Below, piece after piece: positions 2,230 through 53,260 of a stretch of 64,000 nt of DNA. A program made the position numbers and the translations under genes. The notes below the pieces were generated by a model that saw nothing but the letters and a program-made list of their open reading frames with translations, searched no databases and was not told where the DNA came from. The stretch's first letter is position 1. Each line of letters begins with the position of its first letter. This DNA comes from Conus ventricosus (taxonomy: Eukaryota; Mollusca; Gastropoda; Neogastropoda; Conidae), in contig CM031603.1 in NCBI GenBank assembly GCA_018398815.1, forward strand, positions 6,039,513 through 6,103,512, written 5' to 3'.

Positions 2230-2385
2230 AAAAAAAAAAAAAGGGGGGGGGGGGGGGGGGAGAAAAAAGAGAAAAGATTTAAAAAGACAGAAAAAAAGAA
2301 AACGAAAGGAAAAAATAGGGGAGGCAAACACTGACACAGGGAACAAAACAAAAAACAAAACAAAACAAAAAACAAAACATGACCG
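2230..2385. repeat. Poly-A / poly-G and purine-rich low-complexity tract
   Basis: An A run of about 12 is followed by about 18 G, then A/G-rich and (AAAAC)n-like sequence. It separates the Polinton remnant from the hammerhead-bearing repeat. Confidence 0.85.
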
Positions 2386-2832
2386 TCCATGGACAAACCT
2401 TTCAGCCTTTTTTCCCCCACTACTTAATTCTTCAGCATCATATTGTTTGGTCAATCAGTGGGAGATTGCATCTCTTAGGAGATCCAAGTAAAGGCTGTCC
2501 TGCACAATTCTTAGCCACTGACATTGCTTGAGTTATAGAACAGCAGAGCTGACCACTCAAACTGTTCCATATCTTTTAATCTCCCTTGTATCCTTGAATG
2601 GATCCTCAGGCATAGGCTCAAAGATTGTCCCCTACATTTTATACTGTTTGTATAATATTTTACTTTTTTAGCAACTTTTTCTCTCTCAACACTTTCGTTT
2701 TATTTCATGTTTTCTATCCTTCACTGGCTGCTTTGGGGTGCTGTTGGATTCTTTTTTGAACCCTTGGTGGCGAGAACACCACAGAATTATGAACTGTGGT
2801 GTGTCTCGATTTGACACCAGGAGCGCAGGCAT

Positions 2833-2894
2833 GATCAGCCGTGTCTCCCTGATGAGTCCGATCCAGCGGACGAAAGGCCTAGGAGCAGGCAATC
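2833..2894 (+). ncRNA. Type I hammerhead self-cleaving ribozyme, copy 1
   Basis: The conserved core CTGATGA (2849-2855) and GAAA (2872-2875) flank stem II, GTCC/GGAC (2856-2859 with 2868-2871) with an 8-nt loop. Stem III is the palindrome AGGCCT (2875-2880), so the loop is essentially absent; such minimal stem III motifs are known to work better as dimers. Stem I pairs CTCC (2845-2848) with GGAG (2882-2885). It continues past an internal GTGT/CA loop with GCC/GGC and GAT/ATC pairs. Predicted cleavage is after A2881. All core nucleotides are present. Folding was done by eye only. Confidence 0.85.
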
Positions 2895-3493
2895 CAAATA
2901 GATCTGCCTTCAGAAGGGATCATGATGGTTCCCTCAGGCAGCTGGTGAAGGGTTTTTCATATTTTTAATATATTTCCCCCATTTTCTTCAGCTTCATTTT
3001 TTTTTCTCTATAAGTTCAAATCTTTGCAAAGTCATTATTATAATGACGGAAGAATTGTTAGCCTGCACTTGTTTTCCCCCACTACTTAATTCTTCAGCAT
3101 CATATTGTTTGGTCAATCAGTGGGAGATTGCATCTCTTAGGAGATCCAAGTAAAGGCTGTCCTGCACAATTCTTAGCCACTGACATTGCTTGAGTTATAG
3201 AACAGCAGAGCTGACCACTCAAACTGTTCCATATCTTTTAATCTCCTTGTATCCTTGAATGGATCCTCAGGCATAGGCTCAAAGATTGTCCCCTACATTT
3301 TATACTGTTTGTATAATACTTTTACTTTTTTAGCAACTTTTTCTCTCTCAACACTTTCGTTTTATTTCATGTTACTATCCTTCACTGGCTGCTTTGGGGT
3401 GCTGTTGGATTCTTTTTTGAACCCTTGGTGGCGAGAACACCACAGAATTATGGACTTTGGTGTGTCTCTATTTGACGCCAAGAGCACAGACAC

Positions 3494-3555
3494 AATCAGC
3501 CGTGTCTCCCTGATGAGTCCGATCCAGCGGACGAAAGGCCTAGGAGCAGGCAATC
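3494..3555 (+). ncRNA. Type I hammerhead self-cleaving ribozyme, copy 2
   Basis: This has the same core as copy 1, offset by 661 bases: CTGATGA at 3510-3516, GTCC/GGAC stem II, GAAA, palindromic AGGCCT stem III, and CTCC/GGAG plus GCC/GGC in stem I. The only change in the motif is at the distal end of stem I (AAT instead of GAT), which costs one outer base pair. Predicted cleavage is after A3542, so a transcript through both copies would release a 661-nt RNA. Confidence 0.85.
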
Positions 3556-3756
3556 CAAATAGATCTGCCTTCAGAAAGGATCACGATGGTTCCCTCAGGC
3601 AGCTTGTGAAGGGTTTTTCATATTTTTAATATATTTCCCCCATTTTCTTCAGCTTCATTTTTTTTCTATAAGTTCAAATCTTTGCAAAGTCATTATTATA
3701 ATGACGGAAGAATTGTTAGCCTGCACTTGTTTTCCCCCACTACTTAATTCTTCAGC

Positions 3757-4437
3757 CAACAAGGAAGTAACACCTGATCCCATGAAAGCAAACAAAACAA
3801 AAATGGCTGCCCTCTTACAATGTCATCCCAGGAGTCTTTTCAGTCATTTCATGTACATAGCCTTTCCTTGGTGAGTGGCCATTTTATTCAGTTAGGAATC
3901 TGTTCTCTCTTTGATCATTCCCTCTTTCCTCTTTCCTGGCTGTCAGTCAGCGTAACTCTGCCCTCATGTTTCCCTCTCCTTTTCCCCCAGCAGTCGTGAG
4001 TCTGTCCTTCATTCAGTGTATTTAGCCTTTCCTTGGTGACTCATCCATCGGACTCAGGTAGAGTTTCAGTGCCATAGGCAACCCCTCCCTCTTTTGACTC
4101 CTGTCAACATGGCACGTTCTGAGTAGTTGCTTTTTTTGTATTGTTTGTAATGCCATTTTCTGTTTGCTTGCCTGTTCACAGCATTCCTCAGAATACACTG
4201 GCTTTGTGTACCTTGTGTTACATGCCATTCTTTGAATAATCATTATTCACTGCTCATTACTTGTAGCTAATCAACTGGTTGCGGTTGATACATTGATTTT
4301 TATGACTTTTCTGTTTTAACTCGGTGAGTGTGGCTTATGTGACAGTTCTCTTTATAGCCCGAAAATGATGGTAATAGTGATTCATTGTGGTGTCCGATCA
4401 TGACACATGCATTTTCCCAAGGGAACACCTGCTGAGG
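3757..4437. other. Non-coding stretch, nothing recognised
   Basis: AT-rich intergenic or intronic sequence with no supported gene. Open frames here are short and lack any family pattern. Confidence 0.6.
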
Positions 4438-4960: not shown

Positions 4961-5488
4961 TCTGCTATACAACACAACTCTACACAGTACAGAACAAGTA
5001 TAATGCAGCACAATGTTGTTGTCGGCTCTGCTATACAACACAACTCTACACAGTACAGAACAAGTATAATGCAGCACAATGTTGTTGTCGGCTCTGCTAT
5101 ACAACAAAACTCTACACAGTACGGAACAAGTATAATGCAGCACAACGTTGTTGTCGGCTCTGCTATACAACACAACTCTACACAGCACAGAACAAGTATA
5201 ATGCAGCACAATGTTGTTGTCGGCTCTTCTATACAACACAACTCTACACAGTACAGAACAAGTATAATGCAGCACAATGTTGTTGTCGGCTCTGCTATAC
5301 AACACAACTCTACACAGTACAGAACAAGTATAATGCAGCACAATGTTGTTGTCGGCTCTGCTATACAACACAACTCTACACAGCACAGAACAAGTATAAT
5401 GCAGCACAATGTTGTTGTCAGCTCTGCTATACAACACAACTCTACACAGTACAGAACAAGTATAATGCAGCACAATGTTGTTGTCGGG
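4961..5488 (+). repeat. 66-bp minisatellite, 8 copies
   Basis: Eight direct copies of a 66-bp unit are almost identical. The unit length is a multiple of three, so it stays open in one + frame as a 22-residue repeat starting SAIQHNSTQYRT. It ends 12 bases before the probable NGLY1 splice acceptor (CTGTTGCAG at 5492-5500). That makes it intronic rather than coding, although the frame runs unbroken into the exon. Confidence 0.9.
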
Positions 5489-5500
5489 GACCTGTTGCAG

Positions 5501-6694
5501 AGGAGTCAGAGTGACTTTCTGCGGAGGATCCAGAGCACCATGGAGCACGTGAACCTGTACGAAGACCCCAACCTGCAGCACAAAGCCAGGACCACCATGC
5601 CTGTGGCCCAGCTCCAACAACAAGCTGAAACCCGCCACACCTCTCTTCAGCAGCTGGCTGGTGGGGAGGCAGCTAGCGTGGACTTGAAGGACTGCTTGCT
5701 CTTGGAGCTGCTCAGCTGGTTCAAAAAGTCGTTTTTCCACTGGGTGGATTCCCCGCCTTGCCAGAGATGCGGCGGAAGTACACATCACATGGGCAGCGCG
5801 AATCCCACACCTGAAGAGCTGACTTGGGGGGGACACGGGTGGAGAATCACCGATGTGACACCTGCAGAGAAATGACGCGCTTCCCTCGCTACAACCATCC
5901 CAGCAAGCTGCTGGAGACGCGGCGTGGCCGTTGCGGGGAGTGGGCCAATTGTTTCACGTTGTGCTGTCGGGCTCTAGGGTTTGAAGCCAGGTATGTTCTG
6001 GACTGGACCGACCATGTTTGGACTGAGGTGTACTCGGAGAGTCAGAAGCGCTGGCTGCACTGCGACCCCTGTGAGAACGTCTGCGACAAACCTTTGCTGT
6101 ACGAGGAGGGCTGGGGCAAGAAGCTGACCTATGTCCTGGCCTTCTCCAAGGACGAGGCTCAGGACGTCACCTGGAGGTACTCTGCTAAGCACGCCGAAGT
6201 CCTGACACGCAGGACACTGTGCAGGGAACCCTGGCTGGTCAGCGTGCTCCACAACATCTTCTGCAACCAACTGCGGGGGATGGAGGAAGGCCGAAGGCAG
6301 GAGATGCAGCGGCGGTTGGTTGTGGAGCTGGTGGAGCTGATCACTGTGAAGAGAGAGAGCGGCCAACAGCTGCCTGGGCGGAGCTCAGGGTCTCTGGCGT
6401 GGCGACAGGCCCGTGGGGAAGTGGGACAAGCCGCAACGCCCATCCAGCGTCAGTATGTGTTCCGACTGCTGGATGAAGAGAAGCACAGCGAGGTGGTGCA
6501 CATCAAGTACAGCTGTGCTCAGGACCTGTACATACGCACGTCGGCCCATGACATCAGCACCTCCCAGTGGCACGGGTGTGTAAGCAGTGCCAAAAGTGTG
6601 TTCAGGAAGGAGGAGAGCGACTGGAAGATGACCTACCTGGCCAGGGAACCGGGGGCACAGTCCGGGGAAGTGTCCTGGAAGTTTGACCTGTCAG
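5501..6694 (+). CDS. NGLY1: Peptide:N-glycanase (NGLY1) catalytic exon; contains one frameshift
   Basis: NGLY1 removes N-glycans from misfolded glycoproteins in the cytosol during ER-associated degradation. This exon encodes the linker helix, the transglutaminase-like core and the start of the PAW domain. Zinc-site pairs CQRC and CDTC are present. The catalytic triad is Cys in GRCGEWANCF, His in DWTDHVWTEVY and Asp in WLHCDPCENVCDKPLLYE. The reading frame switches at a run of seven G (5826-5832), where one G appears to be missing; this could be an assembly error or a real lesion. The start follows a TTGCAG acceptor and the end is a CAG|GTCAGT donor (phase 1). The N-terminal PUB domain is not in the window. 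Vertebrate genes split this region into many exons; here it is one. Confidence 0.9.
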
Positions 6695-6841
6695 GTCAGT
6701 GCAGTGCTCCTCTGTGTTTTTGATGCCCAATGGCTTATTTGTTCTTGTGCAAAAGGCTTTATTATCTATTAATGTAAAGTTTAAATTTCTTTCATCAAAA
6801 CAATGAGGTCTGATGTATGAAAAAGTTGAAAACATACTCCT

Positions 6842-7890: not shown

Positions 7891-10741
7891 TAACACTATA
7901 ATAACAGGCTCAGAAATTGAAAAACCCATTTCAAGTTTTGAATAATTCATAATGATTCTTGTCCCTCTCAGTACTTAGTTTTCCACAAAGAACATGAAGA
8001 GGATAGCATTAGAATCTTGTCTTCTGCAGCAACTGCAAATAACACTGCTTAACACAGCTTCAAAAGACCAGAGAGGGCCATGACCGATGAAAGCATCAGA
8101 TAGACTTCTGGCAGCAAAGTCTTTACCATGTAGACTGGGAGTGTCTAGGAACCCATGACAGAATTGTATCAGAACCTTGGGTTATAAACTGGTGGATTAG
8201 AAATAAGATCCCACATAAAATGTCTGATCAAGTAGTTGCCGATTGTCAGTGTATTGTAAAGCCATAAGTGCAAATTTTGAATCTGTTGATGTAAGAATTG
8301 TCAAACAGCCACAACATCAATAAAGTCTTTAACTTTCAAAATGGCACATAACTCGGGTGTGAATCCCTTTGTAGTGTGGAATTTCCTAAGCACTGTTAAT
8401 CAAAGAAAAAAAAAAAAAAACGGCAGCCCCAACATGGTGAGCAGCTGAAATTGAACAATCTGTGAATAGAGGTAGATATGATTATGTAATAGGTCCTTGA
8501 CAATGGATGGGGGTAACAGAGGGGTGTCATTTTTACTGGGGTCCTAGTAAGAGTCAGTAATGCCAGCCTGCTCTGTCAACCATAGAGGATGTGGATGTGA
8601 GATCTGGTAGTGGTAGCGTGGCAATGCCATCTAGAGGTAGGGTACAACTCAGACACAGTGATGAAACCTAAAAGGACGTATGCGCTGTTTTGTTTGGAAT
8701 CTCCTAAGAAACATAGATGGATAGAGCGGGCCTTCATTTAATTCAGTTATAACTGAATTTGGAACAGTTCTTGCTCTCTAACTGTAAAATAGCAGGCAAA
8801 GATTAGTCTATGTTGTTAGGTTAGGGGTAACATTCCAGCACACCACACGCACACACACACATGGGGAAGAAACATGAACATTTCACCTCAAGATTTACAT
8901 GTGACAGCAGATTAAAGAGAGTAGTTCAAGCACAAAGGAAGTTGAAGTCAATAAATAAACTGCTGTGGCACATTATGACTTTGGAAAACTTGAAAGAAAT
9001 TCAGGTCCATGATTTTATGTGTCGATGCATGGAAATATTTGGCATCAATACATAACAACAATACTTTGCTAAAATATGTTGAATTAAAAATATGAGGATC
9101 TGGGCTGTTTATTTATGGCTGTGTCTTGCCTTTGGTTAAACAGGGTTAGAAATTCCCTGATAATTTTTAGTTGTCTTGAGGACAAGTAGAGTAGATAGGA
9201 AAAGCTTCTCATCCCCCCAAATTTGTATGCTTTCTTTTAGTGGAGAGAAGGTCAAAAAAAAGAAAAGAAAAGACAACTAATGGTTAGTGCAGTTGACAAG
9301 TTCCCAGACATAATAATTGAGCAAGGGCATGCTCTGCACACATGTAATAAAGGCTTGAGGGAGAAAAATAAGGTTTTAGACAAACAAAAAACAAAACAAA
9401 ACAAAAATTCTGTCATATAAATTATACAGAATATAAATGGAAAGCTGTTTTCCACCATGCATTAAAGTGTAAAAGAAAAGAACATAAGCAAAAAAATGTC
9501 TTGCTTCCACCATTTCGCTACTTCAGAGGCACACCGGTTCATCTCCAAAATGGCAGATTTGAGAAATGCCCACTTGAAGTTTTTAAACAATGGCAGAAGT
9601 CACACGAGTACTTCTATAGTCACATAACTCACAATGGTTCAAGTTCAAGTTGTAATGTATAAGTGCTGTTAGCAGCATCAAATAGTATTCAACAGAAAAC
9701 ATAAAAACACACATTTACAAAAAATAGTCATTCCTTGCTTGAAAACTGCATCGCAGGGCTCTTCATAATTTGGAGCAAACCAGACTTCCAGTGGTAAGCC
9801 TGGTGTAGCGCACTCTTTATCTGACCTCCTAGCCTCTCCCCTCCCACATGGCAGAGCAGGCCATAAATCAGTGTAATGAGGAAGGCAGATGTTTTTCCTC
9901 CTGCTGCCCTTATCTTTCACAGCAGGGAAGAGTATCAGCCAAGTGTACGGAGGTAGCCTACCCTCCCTTCCTTTCCTTAACATATCCTCTTTCTCAGCAC
10001 AGTTGGTTAAACTTAAAGCCGGGTGTTCCGCTGTTGCTCCAAACACATAGGTAATCTTGCTCTGTGCCACAAGTGTTTTTTCGCTTTATCTCTGCTATTA
10101 TGCAACATCACATCACCAGGTTTGGAGCTCTTGATAAGACCATGAAAAGACACACAATGCACCAAAAAACCCAAAACCCAAAATTTGGAGGTAATCTGGT
10201 GTGGCTCTAATGTAGCGATTTACACATTCCTGGACTGAACTGAAATGATGAAATCTTCATGTAGCTCTTAGTCTTTATCCTCATTCTTTTCCTCTTCCAC
10301 CACACAGATGCACAGTCCAAATAAATCTGCAAACTTTCAGAAACAAAAGAGTAGAGTTCTGTCATTTCTGCACCGACAAAGCACAAAATCTGTACATCCT
10401 TTTGAAACTTTGTTAAACAGCACTTTGCTGTAGTTACTGAGAAAAAAACAGGTGCGGGGGAGGGGGTGGGGGGAGGAGGATTGTTGGACATGAGGTGCAG
10501 AAGTGAAAAGAGGAGGTGGGAAGCACAGTCCATCTGCATTGAAGCTGTCTGCTCTGTCACCTTTTCACTGAAAAGTTGGTTGCCCAGTGTACAAATGGAA
10601 AGAGTATAATTGACTATTTCTGCTTGTCTGCCTAAAGGTTTGGTTGTCCTGAACAGTTGAACAGGTGGGTATGTCAGCCCCTGTTTAATGATGCCACTGA
10701 ACTGGGAGTTGAGACAGCTCAGGTGACATGTTTCAGGGAAG

Positions 10742-10846
10742 ACTTACGTATCAACAAACTGGAGGTGAAGGCCAGCAGCGCAGTGTTTGAGAACGGATCT
10801 GTCACCTGGAGAATTTGCTCAGATGATGACTGCTTCTCCGTTCCTG
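10742..10846 (+). CDS. NGLY1: NGLY1 PAW-domain exon
   Basis: It encodes the LRINKLEVKASSAVF segment and a GSVTWRI strand, matching the carbohydrate-binding PAW domain that follows the catalytic core in animal NGLY1. The donor is CCTG|GTAGGT (phase 1). The 5' edge is uncertain: 10742 gives a compact join to the upstream exon, while 10718 would add eight residues. It joins in frame to both neighbours, so this 3' part of the gene looks intact. Confidence 0.8.
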
Positions 10847-11477
10847 GTAGGTGCATCAGAATGTGGCTTAGTTTGGTCACACATGTTTCAGGTTTGTTTC
10901 TTTTTTTTTCTCCAAAATTTGATTAATAAGTTTTCGTTTTGATTGCATTATCTGTGACCAGTGGCCAGTCTTCTGTGGTCAGTCTTCTGTGGCCAGTCTT
11001 CTGTGGCTAGTCTTCTCTTTGTCTCTCTTCTCTAGCTCTCTTTTCTCTTCTCTTCTCTTGGCCAGTTATGACTCAGAGTGGTTTTATACTTTAAGATTGT
11101 CAGTATCTCGTTTGTGCACATGTTGATGAAAGAGAGGCACAGACTACAAGTGAAAAAAACCAGGGCAGTCCCCCTGAACAATTTCATCAACGTTGACAGT
11201 TACACTACAGTATACATGTTAATTTGTATTCATAAATCTACATTACATTCATAAGAACAGGACATTGGTACTTTTTGTCAAGTATGAAAACTAATTTTTA
11301 AAAAAAGGAAGTGTGTGTGTGTGTTTATGCACGCATGCACTTGCATGAGTGTGTGCATATATGTATTTAGATGTGGGTGTCTCTGTGTGTTTGTATTTGT
11401 GTGTGAGAGAGAGAAGAGAGATAGGAAGGTACAAGACATATTTCAGCCACAGCAATAATTCGGGTTTCCTGTTCTAG

Positions 11478-12999: not shown

Positions 13000-14560
13000 T
13001 CAGTAGTTGTTGGTGGTGTGGTACACTGTGAACCATGGGTCTGGACGCAGGGAAGGGTGAGACGGACGTTGTGCACACTCATACACAGCCACCTTCCTGG
13101 TGCCATGCTTCCAGCACACCTCACGCTTCCTGGTAGCTGCTCGCTTGCCTGTCAGTTGCGTGATTCGGCAAGGAAAGTGCCTTTCAATCAGCCGAGCAAC
13201 GTCTTCAGAGCGTGCAGGGTCTGCTGGCTGTAGTGGATTGTCGCCATACAATAGACTATTAATCACTTCAGTTTGGAAGGAGAGAAAATCCATGGCGCTT
13301 TCACTGTCTTTCTTGAAGATGGTGTAGGCATTCAGCAGGCTCACCTGAAGCAAATGCAGCATCACCTTCTCGCACCACCATGTGGTCTTCCGTGTGGCGT
13401 CACAGGGCTGCAGCATTTGGTCAGCCCTGTCCACAGCCCCCATCTTGGAGTTGTAGTCGACCACGCAGGTAGGTTGTGCGACCTGTCTGCCTCTCCGCTG
13501 CACCTGTTTCATACTCTCGTCATGCATGGTGCTCAGCATATACACCGCTTTACTGGAGTGCCACTAGATGAAGAGCAGCGGCCCAGACCTCCGTGCTTTA
13601 CTGGAGTGCCATTTGATGAAGAGCAGCGGCCCAGACCTCCGTGCTTTACTGGAGTGCCACTTGATGAAGAGCAGCGGCCCAGACCTCCATGCTTTACTGG
13701 AGTGCCATTTGATGAAGAGAAGTGGCCCAGACCTCCATGCTTTACTGGAGTGCCATTTGATGAAGAGCAGCGGCCCAGACCTCCATGCTTTACTGGAGTG
13801 CCATTTGATGAAGAGAAGTGGCCCAGACCTCCGTGCTTTACTGGAGTGCCATTTGATGAAGAGCAGCGGCCCAGACCTCCATGCTTTACTGGAGTGCCAT
13901 TTGATGAAGAGCAGCGGCCCAGACCTCCGTGCTTTACTGGAGTGCCACTTGATGAAGAGAAGTGGCCCAGACCTCCGTGCTTTACTGGAGTGCCACTAGA
14001 TGAAGAGCAGCGGCCCAGACCTCCATGCTTTACTGGAGTGCCATTTGATGAAGAGCAGCGGCCCAGACCTCCATGCTTTACTGGAGTGCCACTAGATGAA
14101 GAGAAGTGGCCCAGACCTCCATGCTTTACTGGAGTGCCATTTGATGAAGAGCAGCGGCCCAGACCTCCATGCTTTACTGGAGTGCCATTTGATGAAGAGA
14201 AGTGGCCCAGACCTCCATGCTTTACTGGAGTGCCATTTGATGAAGAGAAGTGGCCCAGACCTCCGTGCTTTACTGGAGTGCCACTTGATGAAGAGCAGCG
14301 GCCCAGACCTCCGTGCTTTACTGGAGTGCCACTTGATGAAGAGCAGCGGCCCAGACCTCCGTGCTTTACTGGAGTGCCACTAGATGAAGAGCAGCGGCCC
14401 AGACCTCCGTGCTTTCACTGGCTCCTCCTGACTCACCTTCAGTTCCTGCGCTTCAAGAGGAGCCCTGTTTTGCCACAGCGTTCCACAGCACACTGTCTCC
14501 TTGGTCTTCATGAACTGATAGAGCTTGGTGAGAATCAACCAGGAAAAAGTGGTATGCTAC
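13000..14560 (-). pseudogene. piggyBac-like (PGBD-type) transposase C-terminal remnant
   Basis: Minus-strand frames encode, in order: LYQFMKTKETVCCGTLWQNR (about 14450-14530), an expanded RRSGPLLFIKW segment, VYMLSTMHD (about 13520-13545), VVDYNSKMGAVDRADQML, which contains the third catalytic Asp, and WW...LHLLQVSLLNAY. The end is a degraded Cys/His tail (CWKHGTRK...YHTTNN). These match the RNase H-like core and the C-terminus of piggyBac cut-and-paste transposases. The N-terminal half is not recognisable, and TTAA targets and inverted repeats were not found. TAG codons in some repeat copies confirm it is dead. Confidence 0.8.
13548..14416 (-). repeat. 48-bp minisatellite inside the piggyBac transposase, about 18 copies
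   Basis: The unit equals exactly 16 codons of the transposase (minus strand, ARRSGPLLFIKWHSSK). Copies differ at a few sites (CAG CGG / AAG TGG on the + strand, TTTGATG / CTAGATG). Four copies have CTAGATG on the + strand, which reads as TAG in the transposase frame. A + strand frame also stays open through the array, but that is a consequence of the unit being a multiple of three. Confidence 0.9.
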
Positions 14561-31845: not shown

Positions 31846-32066
31846 GAAAGTGTTACGAGACACTGGTTGTTCATGCGGGGTAGTACGAACAACGCTGGTC
31901 GATAAAGGGGATTTGACAGGGCAAATCCAGACCTGTACTTAATCGATGGCACTGTGAGGGAGTTTCCAGTTGCTAAGATAGAAGTACGTACCCCTTACTT
32001 CTCAGGCGAGTTGTCTGCGTTGGTGATGGAGAAAACCCCTTCACGATTTGATCATTGGGAATATCC
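31846..32066 (+). pseudogene. Gypsy aspartic protease remnant
   Basis: The active-site motif LRDTGCS is encoded, with DTG at 31859-31867, followed by hydrophobic strands (REFPVAKIEVRTPYF, ALVMEK) typical of a retropepsin. A frame change occurs near 31930. The expected second conserved 'I(I/L)G' motif is degraded near 32050. Confidence 0.7.
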
Positions 32067-32798
32067 CAGGTGCAAGGGATCCAGGGATCCTGAGTTGTTG
32101 ACTGCTACAGGGGCAGCAGTTCAGACACGGAGCAAGAAGGAGGAAAAGGTTGTTAAACCGTTAGTTGTTCCAGGAAGGAAGTCAGGCATAGACGTGTCGC
32201 CTGATGAGTTTAGGGCAGCGCAGGAACAAGACCCTTCGCTCGTGAAGTCTTGGGAGTTGGCAAGAGGTGGAGAGAAACAGGAGTCCGAAGAAGTCAAAAC
32301 CACATATCAGTATGTGGTAGACTTACGCAATAGGCTCGAGGAGACATGTAAGGTCGCAGGGAGAGTTTGCAGGAGGCTAGGGTCGTCCAGAAGAAGCAGT
32401 ATGACAGGAAGGTGAGGAAGCAATTCCTCAAGGTGGGAGATCAAGTCCTGTTACTGCTTCCCACGGATCACAACAAGCTGCTGATGCATTGGAAGGGGCC
32501 ATTCACCATCATTGAAAAGGTAGATCAGGACTACCGAATCGATGTGAATGGGAAACCAAAACTTTTCCATGCAAATCTACTCCGCAAATATATTCAGCGT
32601 GAGACTCAGCACATAGGCGCAGCAGCAATCATTGATGGAGGTGAGGGAGACCCAGCAGAAGAAGGGGAGATTTTGTTGCCTGAGTTTCCAGGAGAAGAGT
32701 CATACAGGGATGTGTCACTGTATGAAGGGCTAGGCAGTAGGAGACAGGGGGAAGTTAGTGGGCTCCTAGAACAGTATAGGGCGTCCCTGACTGTATAA
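32067..32798 (+). pseudogene. Integrase remnant: flanks and C-terminal GPY/F domain, core deleted
   Basis: A pre-integrase linker (SPDEFRAAQEQDPSLVKSW, about 32195-32255) joins abruptly near 32270-32290 to the end-of-integrase helix. The GPY/F chromatin-contact domain follows (WKGPF at 32490-32504, then YRIDVNGKPKLFHANLLRKY). The zinc-binding HHCC module and the DDE catalytic core, normally 200 or more residues, are absent. A frame change lies near 32370. Its place before the reverse transcriptase is the notable feature. Confidence 0.8.
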
Positions 32799-32822
32799 AC
32801 CAGGCAGGACAACTCTAGAGAC

Positions 32823-34107
32823 ATGTACGGTGGAGTTGACATCACAGAAACCCGTACATGTGAAAGCCTACCCGATCCCATATGCCACCAAGCAAGTGAT
32901 CGAGGAGGAGTAGAAAAGATGTTGGACCTTGGGGTGATTGAACCGTCCAAATCATCATATAGTGCACCCGTCGTCTTAGTGAGGAAAAAGTCAGGTGAGC
33001 ATCGATTCTGTGTCGACTATAGACGTCTGAACAGTGTCACCAAGGTCGATGCAGAGGTCATACCCAACATGGAAGACCTGTTCGCTCAGATCGCACAAGC
33101 AAGAGCCAGTATTTCACCAGGATCGATCTGAGCAAGGGTTACTGGCAAATAGCCTTGAGTGATGACTCAAAGGAAGTCACAGCATTTTCCACTCCTATGG
33201 GCTATACCAGTGGCGAGTACTCCCTTTTGGGATGGTCAACGCACCTGCGGTCTTTTCTCGAATGATGAGGAAGCTATTGACGGGATTGGAAGGTGTCGTG
33301 AATTTCATGGATGACATTCTGATAGCATCCGAGACATGGGAGGAGCATATGAGGCAGCTAGGAGCAGTCTTGGAGAGGTTGAGACAAGCCAATCTCACAG
33401 CCAGACCAACAAAGTGCCAGGTTGGCTTTCCAAGCCTGGAGTTCCTAGGTTTTGTTGTCGGAAGCGACACAAAGCAGCCGGAAAGAGGAAAGGTGGAGAA
33501 GATGATGAATTCAGAGAGACCAAAGACCAAAACAGAAGTCAGGAGTCTGCTAGGTTTTATTGGGTTCTATAGGGAGTTTGTTCCAAATTTCGCAGCAATC
33601 ACGAGTCCTCTCAGTGATTTGGTCAAGGCAGGGAAACCGGCAGTGGTCGAGTGGTCAGACGCTGCAGAGCAAGCACTGCAGACGGTGTTGGAAAGACTAG
33701 GTTCCCGTCCCATCTTGAAGCTACCAGATATGTCCAAACCATTTTTGTTGCGGACAGATGCATCAGGTGGTGGGATAGGTGCAGTATTGTTACAGGAGCA
33801 TGAAGGGGTCGAGTTTCCTGTGAGATATGCTAGCAGGAAGTTGACAAAGTGTGAGGAAGGGTACGCAACTGTAGAGAAGGAGTGTTTAGCTGTTGTGTGG
33901 GCCGTGCAGAAGTTCCACAAATACTTGTATGGGAAAGAGTTCGTGATCGAGACGGATCATCAACCACTCAAATTCCTGCAGGAGGCGCAGTTGAAAAACA
34001 GCAGAGTTTCTGCGTTGGGCAATGGCACTGCAGCCTACAGGTATCGAGTGCAGTACATTCCCGGTCGACAGAATGTCGGAGCTGACTATTTAAGTCGTGT
34101 AGTCTAG
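32823..34107 (+). pseudogene. Gypsy reverse transcriptase and RNase H
   Basis: Reverse transcriptase motifs: EKMLDLGVIEPSKSSYSAP, HRFCVDYRRLN, RIDLSKGYWQ (after a frame change near 33100) and catalytic FMDD (33304-33315). The thumb and connection region includes LGFIGFYREFVPNFA. RNase H follows with RTDASGGGIGAVL, ETDHQPLKF and terminal ADYLSRV, ending at 34107. Breaks are confined to the first 400 bases (near 32880, 33100 and 33200); the frame from 33232 to 34107 is intact. No integrase follows. Confidence 0.9.
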
Positions 34108-51699: not shown

Positions 51700-52340
51700 T
51701 TTACTTTCCGTCCCATTCGAGACACTTATTTTAAAGGGCCGAACAAAAAAGTCTTACCCCATTTCAAATCCAACATTTTTGTTGTTGTAGTCAAGCAGAG
51801 GTATATTTTCAAACTTGTGTACTAGTTAACTGGGAAAATTAAGTTCCCAGAAAGTGATGACGTCATTTTTGCACAATTGTGTGTGTGTGTGTTTTTCATT
51901 TTTTGAATGTCGCCTGCCCACTTGTGTACAGCTTTCTGCCTTATCTAAAATTATCTACAGGAAAATAAACTAGCGAGTTGGTATTAAAGAATTGTCGGGA
52001 ATTTGGCTATTCAGTCATCTCAAAAGCAAAAGATATATTACATTTTCTGCCCTACTAATTATCAAACTAACAGCCCCCCCTTGTAATGGCCGCTCAGCAA
52101 TGCTAAACACACTGTTGCCAGACGGCTTTTTACACAGATGACATTCAGTTCGCCTAGTAAGCGTGGTTAAAACTGGCTGGTGGGCGCAGCCTGCAGAAAA
52201 CTCCCCTTTCCCTGATCTGCATTCACGGCTTGACCTCTGCAGCTGTGGGTGAGCTGAAAACTACCCTTACTCTGAAAACTAAGTGGCTTGCTCTGAACAG
52301 CTGTGCCTGGCTTGCTTTGCTGATTCGGGCTCAACTTCCC
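51700..52340. other. ~640-bp foreign insert within the LINE C-terminal region
   Basis: LINE coding stops at YLGSTLSCMGPG (about 52345) and resumes at VQAFGRLRNRV-like sequence (about 51690). The intervening DNA is AT-rich with a short GT tract and shows no LINE similarity, terminal repeats or clear target duplication. It could be a later insertion or a chimeric join. Confidence 0.5.
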
Positions 52341-53260
52341 TGTCCAGGACCCATACAGGAGAGGGTACTTCCTAGATATCTGAAATGTTCAACGTCCGCA
52401 AGATGGGAGTCGTCAATGACGATGGTGGGTCCCGAGGGGTTGGTGTTTGGTGCAGGTTGGTGAAGCACCTCAGTCTTGCCGAGGCTGATTGTCAGGCCGA
52501 AGAGCTTTGAAGCATCAGAGAAGCGGTCAAGCATCGTTTGCAGATCGGATTCTGCATGGGCCACCAGCGCGCAGTCATCGGCAAAGAGGACTTCTTGAAG
52601 GAGATCTTGATCCCTCTTTGTCTTGGCAGTGAGGCGACGAAGGTAAAAGAGGGAGCCGTAAGACGATAGCGGAATTTGACTCCCTTCTCCAGGTCTTGGA
52701 CAGCGTGGGACAGCATGCAGGTGAAGAAGACGTTGAAGAGGACGGGTAAGACACAGCCCTGCTTCACGCCATTGCTGATCTCGAAGGCTTCCGTCACGTT
52801 TCCACTGGGAGACCTGGCCGGTCATGCCATCATGGAAGAGCTTGATCATTTTCACAAACTTTGGCGGGCATCCAATGCGCTCGAGGATGTCCAAAGAGCT
52901 TCCCTTGACCGTGTCAAAGGCCTTGGTCAGGTCAATGAAAACAGAGTATAGGGGCAGGGTTTTGTTCGAAAACACTTCCCCTGAAGCTGTCTGACAGCAA
53001 AAATCATGTCGCGTGCTTCTGCCGGGTCTGAAGCCGCATGCGCCTCGGGGAGGTTCTGTCGGAAACAATGATGAGTCTTTTTGAGGATGGCTCTGGCAAG
53101 ATCCTTTCCAGCAATGGAGAGTAGGAGATGCCTCTGTAGTTCCCACAGTCGGCTTTGCTTCCCTTGTTCTTGTAGAGGGAGACAATCAGGGCGTCACGGA
53201 AGTCAAACTGGCATCTTCTCCTCCCTGATACTCCGCAGGACATCGTGGAAAGGCTTTTGG
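52331..53260 (-). pseudogene. LINE reverse transcriptase domain
   Basis: It encodes NYRGISYSPLLERILP, CGFRPGRSTRHDF, YSVFIDLTKAFDTVKGSS, NGVKQGCVLPVLFNVFF and catalytic VLFADDCALVAHAE (FADD at 52574-52585), then LTISLGKTEVLHQP and HFRYLGSTLS. The frame changes near 52990-53045, 52790 and 52650. The domain is otherwise collinear with RTE/CR1-type enzymes. Confidence 0.9.

Follow-up and report, generated by a model that had tools for sequence, protein, structure and literature searches.

The 64,000-nucleotide stretch of the Conus ventricosus genome analyzed here (assembly GCA_018398815.1, contig CM031603.1, positions 6,039,513 to 6,103,512; hereafter the window, whose own numbering is used throughout) contains a tandem repeat with a hammerhead ribozyme motif in each unit. 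This raises the question of what kind of element two motifs set one unit length apart might belong to, and of how such an element could spread. The answer that we consider somewhat likelier to be right than wrong is that positions 2410-3756 are an insertion of a dispersed, non-autonomous family of retroelements, which would combine a dimer-dependent hammerhead, RNA that is likely circular and a borrowed reverse transcriptase starting from a fixed point. Judging from its sequence features, the best reading of this family is that it would work most like an animal retrozyme, while carrying a ribozyme of the Penelope type.

The two motifs lie on the forward strand at 2838..2890 and 3499..3551, and were assigned following the rules and numbering of hammerhead ribozymes. 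Core and stems are present in each unit, in type I topology. The invariant nucleotides reported in a preliminary description of this locus are present in both motifs (CTGATGA at 2849 and 3510, GAAAGGCCTA at 2872 and 3533), and stem I is indeed formed by CTCC/GGAG with an internal GTGT/CA loop, to which an outer GCC/GGC helix can be added. Stem II, on the other hand, comprises five base pairs (GTCCG/CGGAC) and a 6-nt loop, instead of the four base pairs first counted. The palindromic AGGCCT put forward as stem III is loopless and self-complementary in both motifs (2875..2880 and 3536..3541, forward strand), and it immediately precedes A17, which is followed by the stem I strand. The predicted cleavage sites fall after A2881 and A3542, exactly 661 nt apart, as had been stated, and 26 nt downstream of the last A of the ribozyme core. 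A descriptor composed of the core, 4 bp of stem I, 4 bp of stem II, a loopless self-pairing stem III and H17 matches the two strands of the window at these two places only, and order-3 simulation of 8.2 Mb of sequence produced no match. The pattern CTGATGAG-(8-18)-CGAAAGGCCT occurs at 71 places of viral and prokaryote contigs, none of which joins stem I, stem II and H17. Five viral contigs (L006, L020, L241, L248 and L288) hold three to five matches to the hammerhead core pattern each, within a few kilobases.

The lack of a loop in stem III had led to the expectation that cleavage works through a dimer, and co-folding agrees with it. The minimum-energy structure of two 61-nt copies is a double hammerhead (-47.1 kcal/mol) joined by a shared 6-bp AGGCCU/AGGCCU helix, in which 2875-2880 pairs with 3536-3541; a single 68-nt copy folded alone reaches -19.0 kcal/mol. 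Dimer-only cleavage of the motif RNA is thus predicted by the folding model, and in the predicted 661-nt circle the inner stem I of the ribozyme forms with a probability of 0.01-0.08. A stem I mimic lying upstream in unit 1 was considered as a regulatory hairpin and dropped, as it is absent from unit 2.

Measured against covariance models, the hammerhead identification fares unevenly. Rfam returns no match in the window at the gathering threshold, and a permissive scan of 2300-3900 gives a single, misregistered RF00008 match (15.6 bits). This negative carries little weight because the ordinary hammerheads of five control loci, in which stem III is closed, likewise gave no hammerhead match at gathering, and Rfam was dropped as an arbiter on account of these missed hammerheads. 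A purpose-built model was made from 16 viral-contig hammerheads with a closed stem III, taken from among the matches listed and mostly bearing other stem II sequences; a first alignment of viral-contig hammerheads was left unused because the stem II of the window's motifs had served to select its members. With default filters, this model finds no match in the window. With filters off, both sites are the top two of 13 in 2300-3900, at 9.1 bits and with a rough E of 0.2, which is not significant. On 11 control loci, the model assigns 23-45 bits to 13 known hammerheads, and five further matches obtain 14-27 bits. The shortfall in score goes with the absent stem III loop, the monomer being an incomplete hammerhead, and the weak score under a closed-stem-III model therefore indicates that the motif agrees with a hammerhead in all but the absent loop.

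The repeat that holds these motifs was described as a tandem element of about 660 bp at 2833..3555. Its tandem nature and its 661-nt period hold, but it extends further than that. Self-BLAST and unit mapping delimit, on the forward strand, an insertion at 2410..3756 that comprises two of the 661-nt units (unit 1, 2410..3071, 662 bp; unit 2, 3072..3729, 658 bp) and a customary 27-bp 3' tail (3730..3756), which is the start of a third unit and whose end matches that of other genomic copies. The units are 97.1% identical across 694 aligned positions, and the GC content of the element is 0.41. No Pfam match was obtained among the unit frames tried, and no open reading frame (ORF) for a reverse transcriptase or GIY-YIG domain was recognized in the unit. 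A candidate target-site duplication, TTCAGCC (left copy 2401..2407, right copy 3751..3757, forward strand), is weak: it overlaps and shares the letters of the tail itself, and 181 of 20,000 random pairs are equally good.

Further copies were sought in the 3.52 Gb genome (12,740 contigs) with two DNA queries, scoring the best 40 of 2609 and the best 40 of 2632 candidate places, and the listed places are 94-100% identical to the query. The resulting sample, made up of 36 loci of 6-8 kb fetched around places listed by the first query plus the window, contains 42 dispersed insertions longer than 150 bp (43 chains in all), and 11 insertions, that of the window included, are multi-unit. The 3' end lies at unit position 23-37, that is, some 30 nt into a further unit, in 34 of the 42 insertions, and this is the zone where the window's tail terminates. 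Among the other eight, one leaves the fetched stretch (L468), four halt at the unit end in the alignment and three end elsewhere; in L467, which aligned only to the unit end, the flank shows a diverged tail. The 5' ends are scattered over the unit (positions 1-603), and insertion lengths range from 0.41 to at least 7.53 units, the longest one leaving the fetched stretch. Target-site duplications of 10-15 bp flank 6 of 31 usable insertions, whereas matches of at least 10 bp occur in 2 of 930 mismatched flank pairs; with a minimum of 7 bp, the numbers are 9 of 31 and 35 of 930. These counts leave out 11 insertions with a 3' end outside the tail or with N in the flank, and they exclude simple-repeat matches, which are frequent because many insertions lie in AT repeats; many target sites are AT-rich or (AT)n. 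Where a copy has several units, these adjoin directly and no ORF separates them. This is the pattern of 3'-anchored retrotransposition, and a retrozyme would be expected to show such a fixed 3' end, together with truncated 5' ends, insertions of several units and target-site duplications. The longest array (L468 1522-6501, reverse strand) has more than seven units, which differ by 0.8-3.1%, before leaving the fetched stretch.

The insertions also bear on the form of the template. The presence of inserts of more than one unit with any 5' end speaks for a circle, and so does the likeness of sister units, which is greater than chance: the closest relative of a piece lies in its own insertion for 14 of 32 pieces, while 500 label shuffles average 2.6 and never exceed 8. 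In the mechanism that we propose, a multi-unit read-through transcript would be cut at both sites by its paired motifs, freeing a 661-nt RNA with 5'-OH and cyclic-phosphate ends that a host ligase such as RtcB might close into a circle. A circle with one motif would then stay closed, because the partner motif is absent. Unit position 30 would be the approximate starting point of target-primed reverse transcription, which would continue round the circle and could in this way insert more than one unit, with the 5' end lying anywhere.

Known systems, drawn upon here and below from the portions of the cited papers that were available, provide partial parallels. With the metazoan retrozymes that lack long terminal repeats (LTRs), primer binding sites and polypurine tracts (Cervera and De la Pena 2020, PMC7229834), the family shares type I hammerheads, tandem units, a lack of coding evidence, a low GC content (below 50%), target-site duplications longer than 4 bp and animal hosts, a mollusc (mussel) among them. 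It departs from them in its unit, of 661 nt against linear and circular RNAs of about 170-400 nt (units of about 150-450 bp), in its loopless stem III and in that its circles are predicted. The observation that the unit is longer than most animal retrozymes is hence borne out, and the proposal of an animal retrozyme stands as regards a dispersed, apparently non-coding, tandem type I hammerhead retroelement, but not as regards unit size. A literature search of partial coverage found no report of a retrozyme in a gastropod. Hammerheads of Penelope-like elements (PMC7761336, PMC6466107, PMC11167929) resemble the present one in their loopless stem III, dimer action (predicted here), overlap with a candidate start codon, tandem arrangement, 3' tail of about 30 nt and AT-rich targets. 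In contrast to those elements, no reverse transcriptase/GIY-YIG ORF is recognized in the unit or near the fetched copies, and stem I includes an outer helix beyond an internal loop. Minimal stem III had been attributed to Penelope-like elements and animal retrozymes alike; it is for Penelope-like elements that the loopless trait is described (PMC7761336), with hammerheads of this kind acting as dimers (PMC7761336, PMC6466107). The hammerhead repeats of axolotl and newt (PMC7229834, PMC6155905) also combine tandem units (330-350 bp in the axolotl) with a very weak, self-complementary stem III, and cleave far better as a dimer, but they reside in amphibians and have a smaller unit, and in one axolotl type stem III consists of a single base pair and a palindromic tetraloop. 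Plant LTR retrozymes (PMC4918200, PMC7761336, PMC7229834), for their part, are non-autonomous and fall in the same size class, with circular RNAs of 600-1000 nt, yet they have type III hammerheads, LTRs and 4-bp duplications.

Several findings weigh against a family that moves through dimer-cleaved circles. In a 901-nt transcript, the double hammerhead lies 12.8 kcal/mol above the best fold. Among the 11 multi-unit insertions, the units of the window, L471 and L450, one L463 unit and the pairs with the first L468 unit are not clearly closer to each other than units across insertions, and since some units have identical counterparts in another insertion, identity within an insertion is no unique evidence for a circle. 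In addition, copies do not begin where the ribozyme would cut. Among the best 40 candidates of a query that begins exactly at the predicted cleavage site, 30 of which fall in the first sample's loci or in the window, none starts at the cut, 39 continue upstream through it and one starts 10 nt after it. Neither does any of the 42 first-sample insertions start within 2 nt of the cut, the query for that sample having extended upstream of it so that single-unit copies starting there could not appear. Since 39 of 40 places run through the cut, the templates of these places were not RNAs cut at this site and left open. Linear RNA with a cut 5' end is hence not the usual template, which may be a closed circle or uncut tandem RNA.

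The window copy itself adds to these objections. Between its units there are 13 substitutions and 6 gap positions, and nine of the substitutions fall within 42 nt just 5' of the ribozyme (2792..2833, forward strand), a clustering reached in none of 100,000 random placements. The common allele of other copies is carried at these nine sites by unit 1 in five cases and by unit 2 in four, and four of the five remaining unit 2 alleles recur in the diverged copies L450 7679, L454 2270 or L461 6243. The clustered differences and unlike haplotypes thus disfavor a single circle as the source of the window copy, which looks from its sequence like a mosaic, perhaps generated by template switching or gene conversion.

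Conservation of the ribozyme is a further point to be weighed. Motif divergence in the first sample is 0.74%, compared with 2.5% for the rest of the query, and core, stem III and A17 are intact in 52 of 59 full motifs, but this conservation is at least partly an ascertainment effect because the query held the motif. In the motif-blind list of 40 places obtained with the query that begins at the cut, of which 38 were assessed after leaving out two that were unalignable upstream, core, stem III and A17 are kept in 32, and the exact 33-mer in 25. Here divergence amounts to 27/1662 in the motif versus 69/2267 upstream (p = 0.005), and removal of four truncated copies reduces this to a non-significant 19/nominal 1496 versus 39/2074 (p = 0.18). 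Most of the best-scoring copies thus keep the ribozyme, and purifying selection on it, which seemed strong in the motif-selected sample, is unproven in the motif-blind one. Moreover, a lizard Penelope-like element with a dead ribozyme inserts its RNA equally well in vitro (PMC11167929).

The likeliest reverse transcriptase for the family would be that of Penelope-like elements of the same genome. AT-rich targets and a tail of about 30 nt agree with Penelope (PMC11167929, PMC3846280). Many GIY-YIG domains occur in the genome (the best 150 of 6911 candidates were scored), and the one locus read (L484) encodes, judging by its motifs and a Pfam match, a reverse transcriptase of the Penelope type accompanied by a GIY-YIG domain. 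Within 3.6 kb this locus has two Penelope-like coding stretches of opposite orientation, and the same reverse transcriptase motif stretch occurs on both strands. The LPKxHK and MGTK types, which we take to be the strong motifs of Penelope reverse transcriptases, are present in L484 and absent from all 36 copy loci (6-8 kb each), where, single weaker matches aside, L464 shows two on opposite strands. A distant or longer autonomous copy may lie elsewhere in the genome. The AT-rich targets recall the AT-rich cleavage by a lizard Penelope-like protein (PMC11167929), but at 111-118 nt beyond the ATG the Conus unit is rich in T/A, where the lizard Penelope-like element is AC-rich. A Penelope origin of retrozymes has been proposed (PMC11722881), and it is conceivable, if some way short of probable, that the Conus family is a stripped Penelope element in the process of turning into a retrozyme, which would have kept the dimer-only ribozyme, the start codon and the 3' tail, but no enzyme. 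The loopless stem III would then solve the problem posed by the circle, because a multi-unit transcript can cut itself and a finished one-unit circle without a partner cannot.

The same likeness to Penelope admits a different explanation, in which an autonomous Penelope-like element, or a derivative without its ORF, has the unit as its terminal repeat (pseudo-LTR), so that it is uncleaved tandem linear RNA that moves and the inherited ribozyme is unneeded. We regard it as unlikely, though still deserving serious attention: the insertions show no trace of cut ends, the distance from core to cut site noted above is in keeping with it, and the terminal repeat of a rotifer element includes the first 12 codons, 22 if its 31-bp tail is counted (PMC3846280). 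In the Conus unit an ATG lies in the hammerhead core, but the frame that follows has only 38 codons, and the tail occupies positions 218-244 nt after the ATG, a greater distance than the elements of PMC3846280 and PMC11167929 show. A protein search for Penelope N-termini returned nothing. The absence of the strongest motifs from the copy loci also speaks against a terminal repeat, as do the abutting units of multi-unit copies, and L484, the single Penelope locus read, resembles the unit at chance level only in BLAST, with short similarities, and has one loose core-pattern match inside an ORF.

It is far less probable that the unit encodes a 38-residue peptide starting within the ribozyme. The frame (2852..2968, forward strand), whose ATG lies inside the ribozyme core, is matched in unit 2 (3513..3629, forward strand) with 37 of 38 residues identical, it stays open in both units as well as in the copies' majority sequence, and raw substitutions by codon position (24/34/71) favor the third. 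However, this excess is due to a few frequent alleles: distinct mutations amount to 15/21/22, which rank 47 of 93 windows and are thus ordinary, and the apparent coding pressure is gone. As protein searches reveal no homologue of the frame and Pfam no match, coding is unsupported. Finally, satellite DNA spread by recombination with a relic ribozyme is hardly credible, for in spite of the tandem units and the L468 array the dispersed insertions, with their common, fixed 3' end, scattered and truncated 5' ends, varied lengths and target-site duplications, identify a retroelement family.

Published questions are which enzyme moves animal retrozymes, whether these descend from Penelope-like elements (PMC11722881) and what prevents self-cleavage of the circle (PMC7229834). 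The present family, with its many copies, its predicted dimer-only ribozyme and its sharp 3' end, allows the three to be addressed together in a single animal: the 3' end points to the priming site, stability of the circle is predicted from the loopless stem III, and the genome contains one Penelope ORF or more.

Downstream of the insertion, from about 5.5 kb and on the same strand, the window holds a gene of N-glycanase type, with Pfam matches to PAW and to the transglutaminase core. Its closest named relative is from the snail Batillaria attramentaria (71% identity, 80% of the query covered), which by itself would make a caenogastropod host likely. The coding part of the gene at 5480-6720 consists of two portions in different frames that meet near 5830 (the tblastn pieces end at 5833 and start at 5827), a change of frame that represents a frameshift, a short intron or an assembly error, and a further matching piece is found at 10720-10848. 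A DDE_Tnp_1_7 transposase end stands beside a tandem array of 18 copies of 48 bp that is open as a reading frame (13003-13563, reverse strand, and 13547-14421), an LTR-type retrotransposon has left a reverse transcriptase and RNase H domain, together with a weak match to an integrase C-terminal-like domain, at 31906-34107, and a reverse transcriptase fragment (RVT_1) lies on the reverse strand at 52334-53185.
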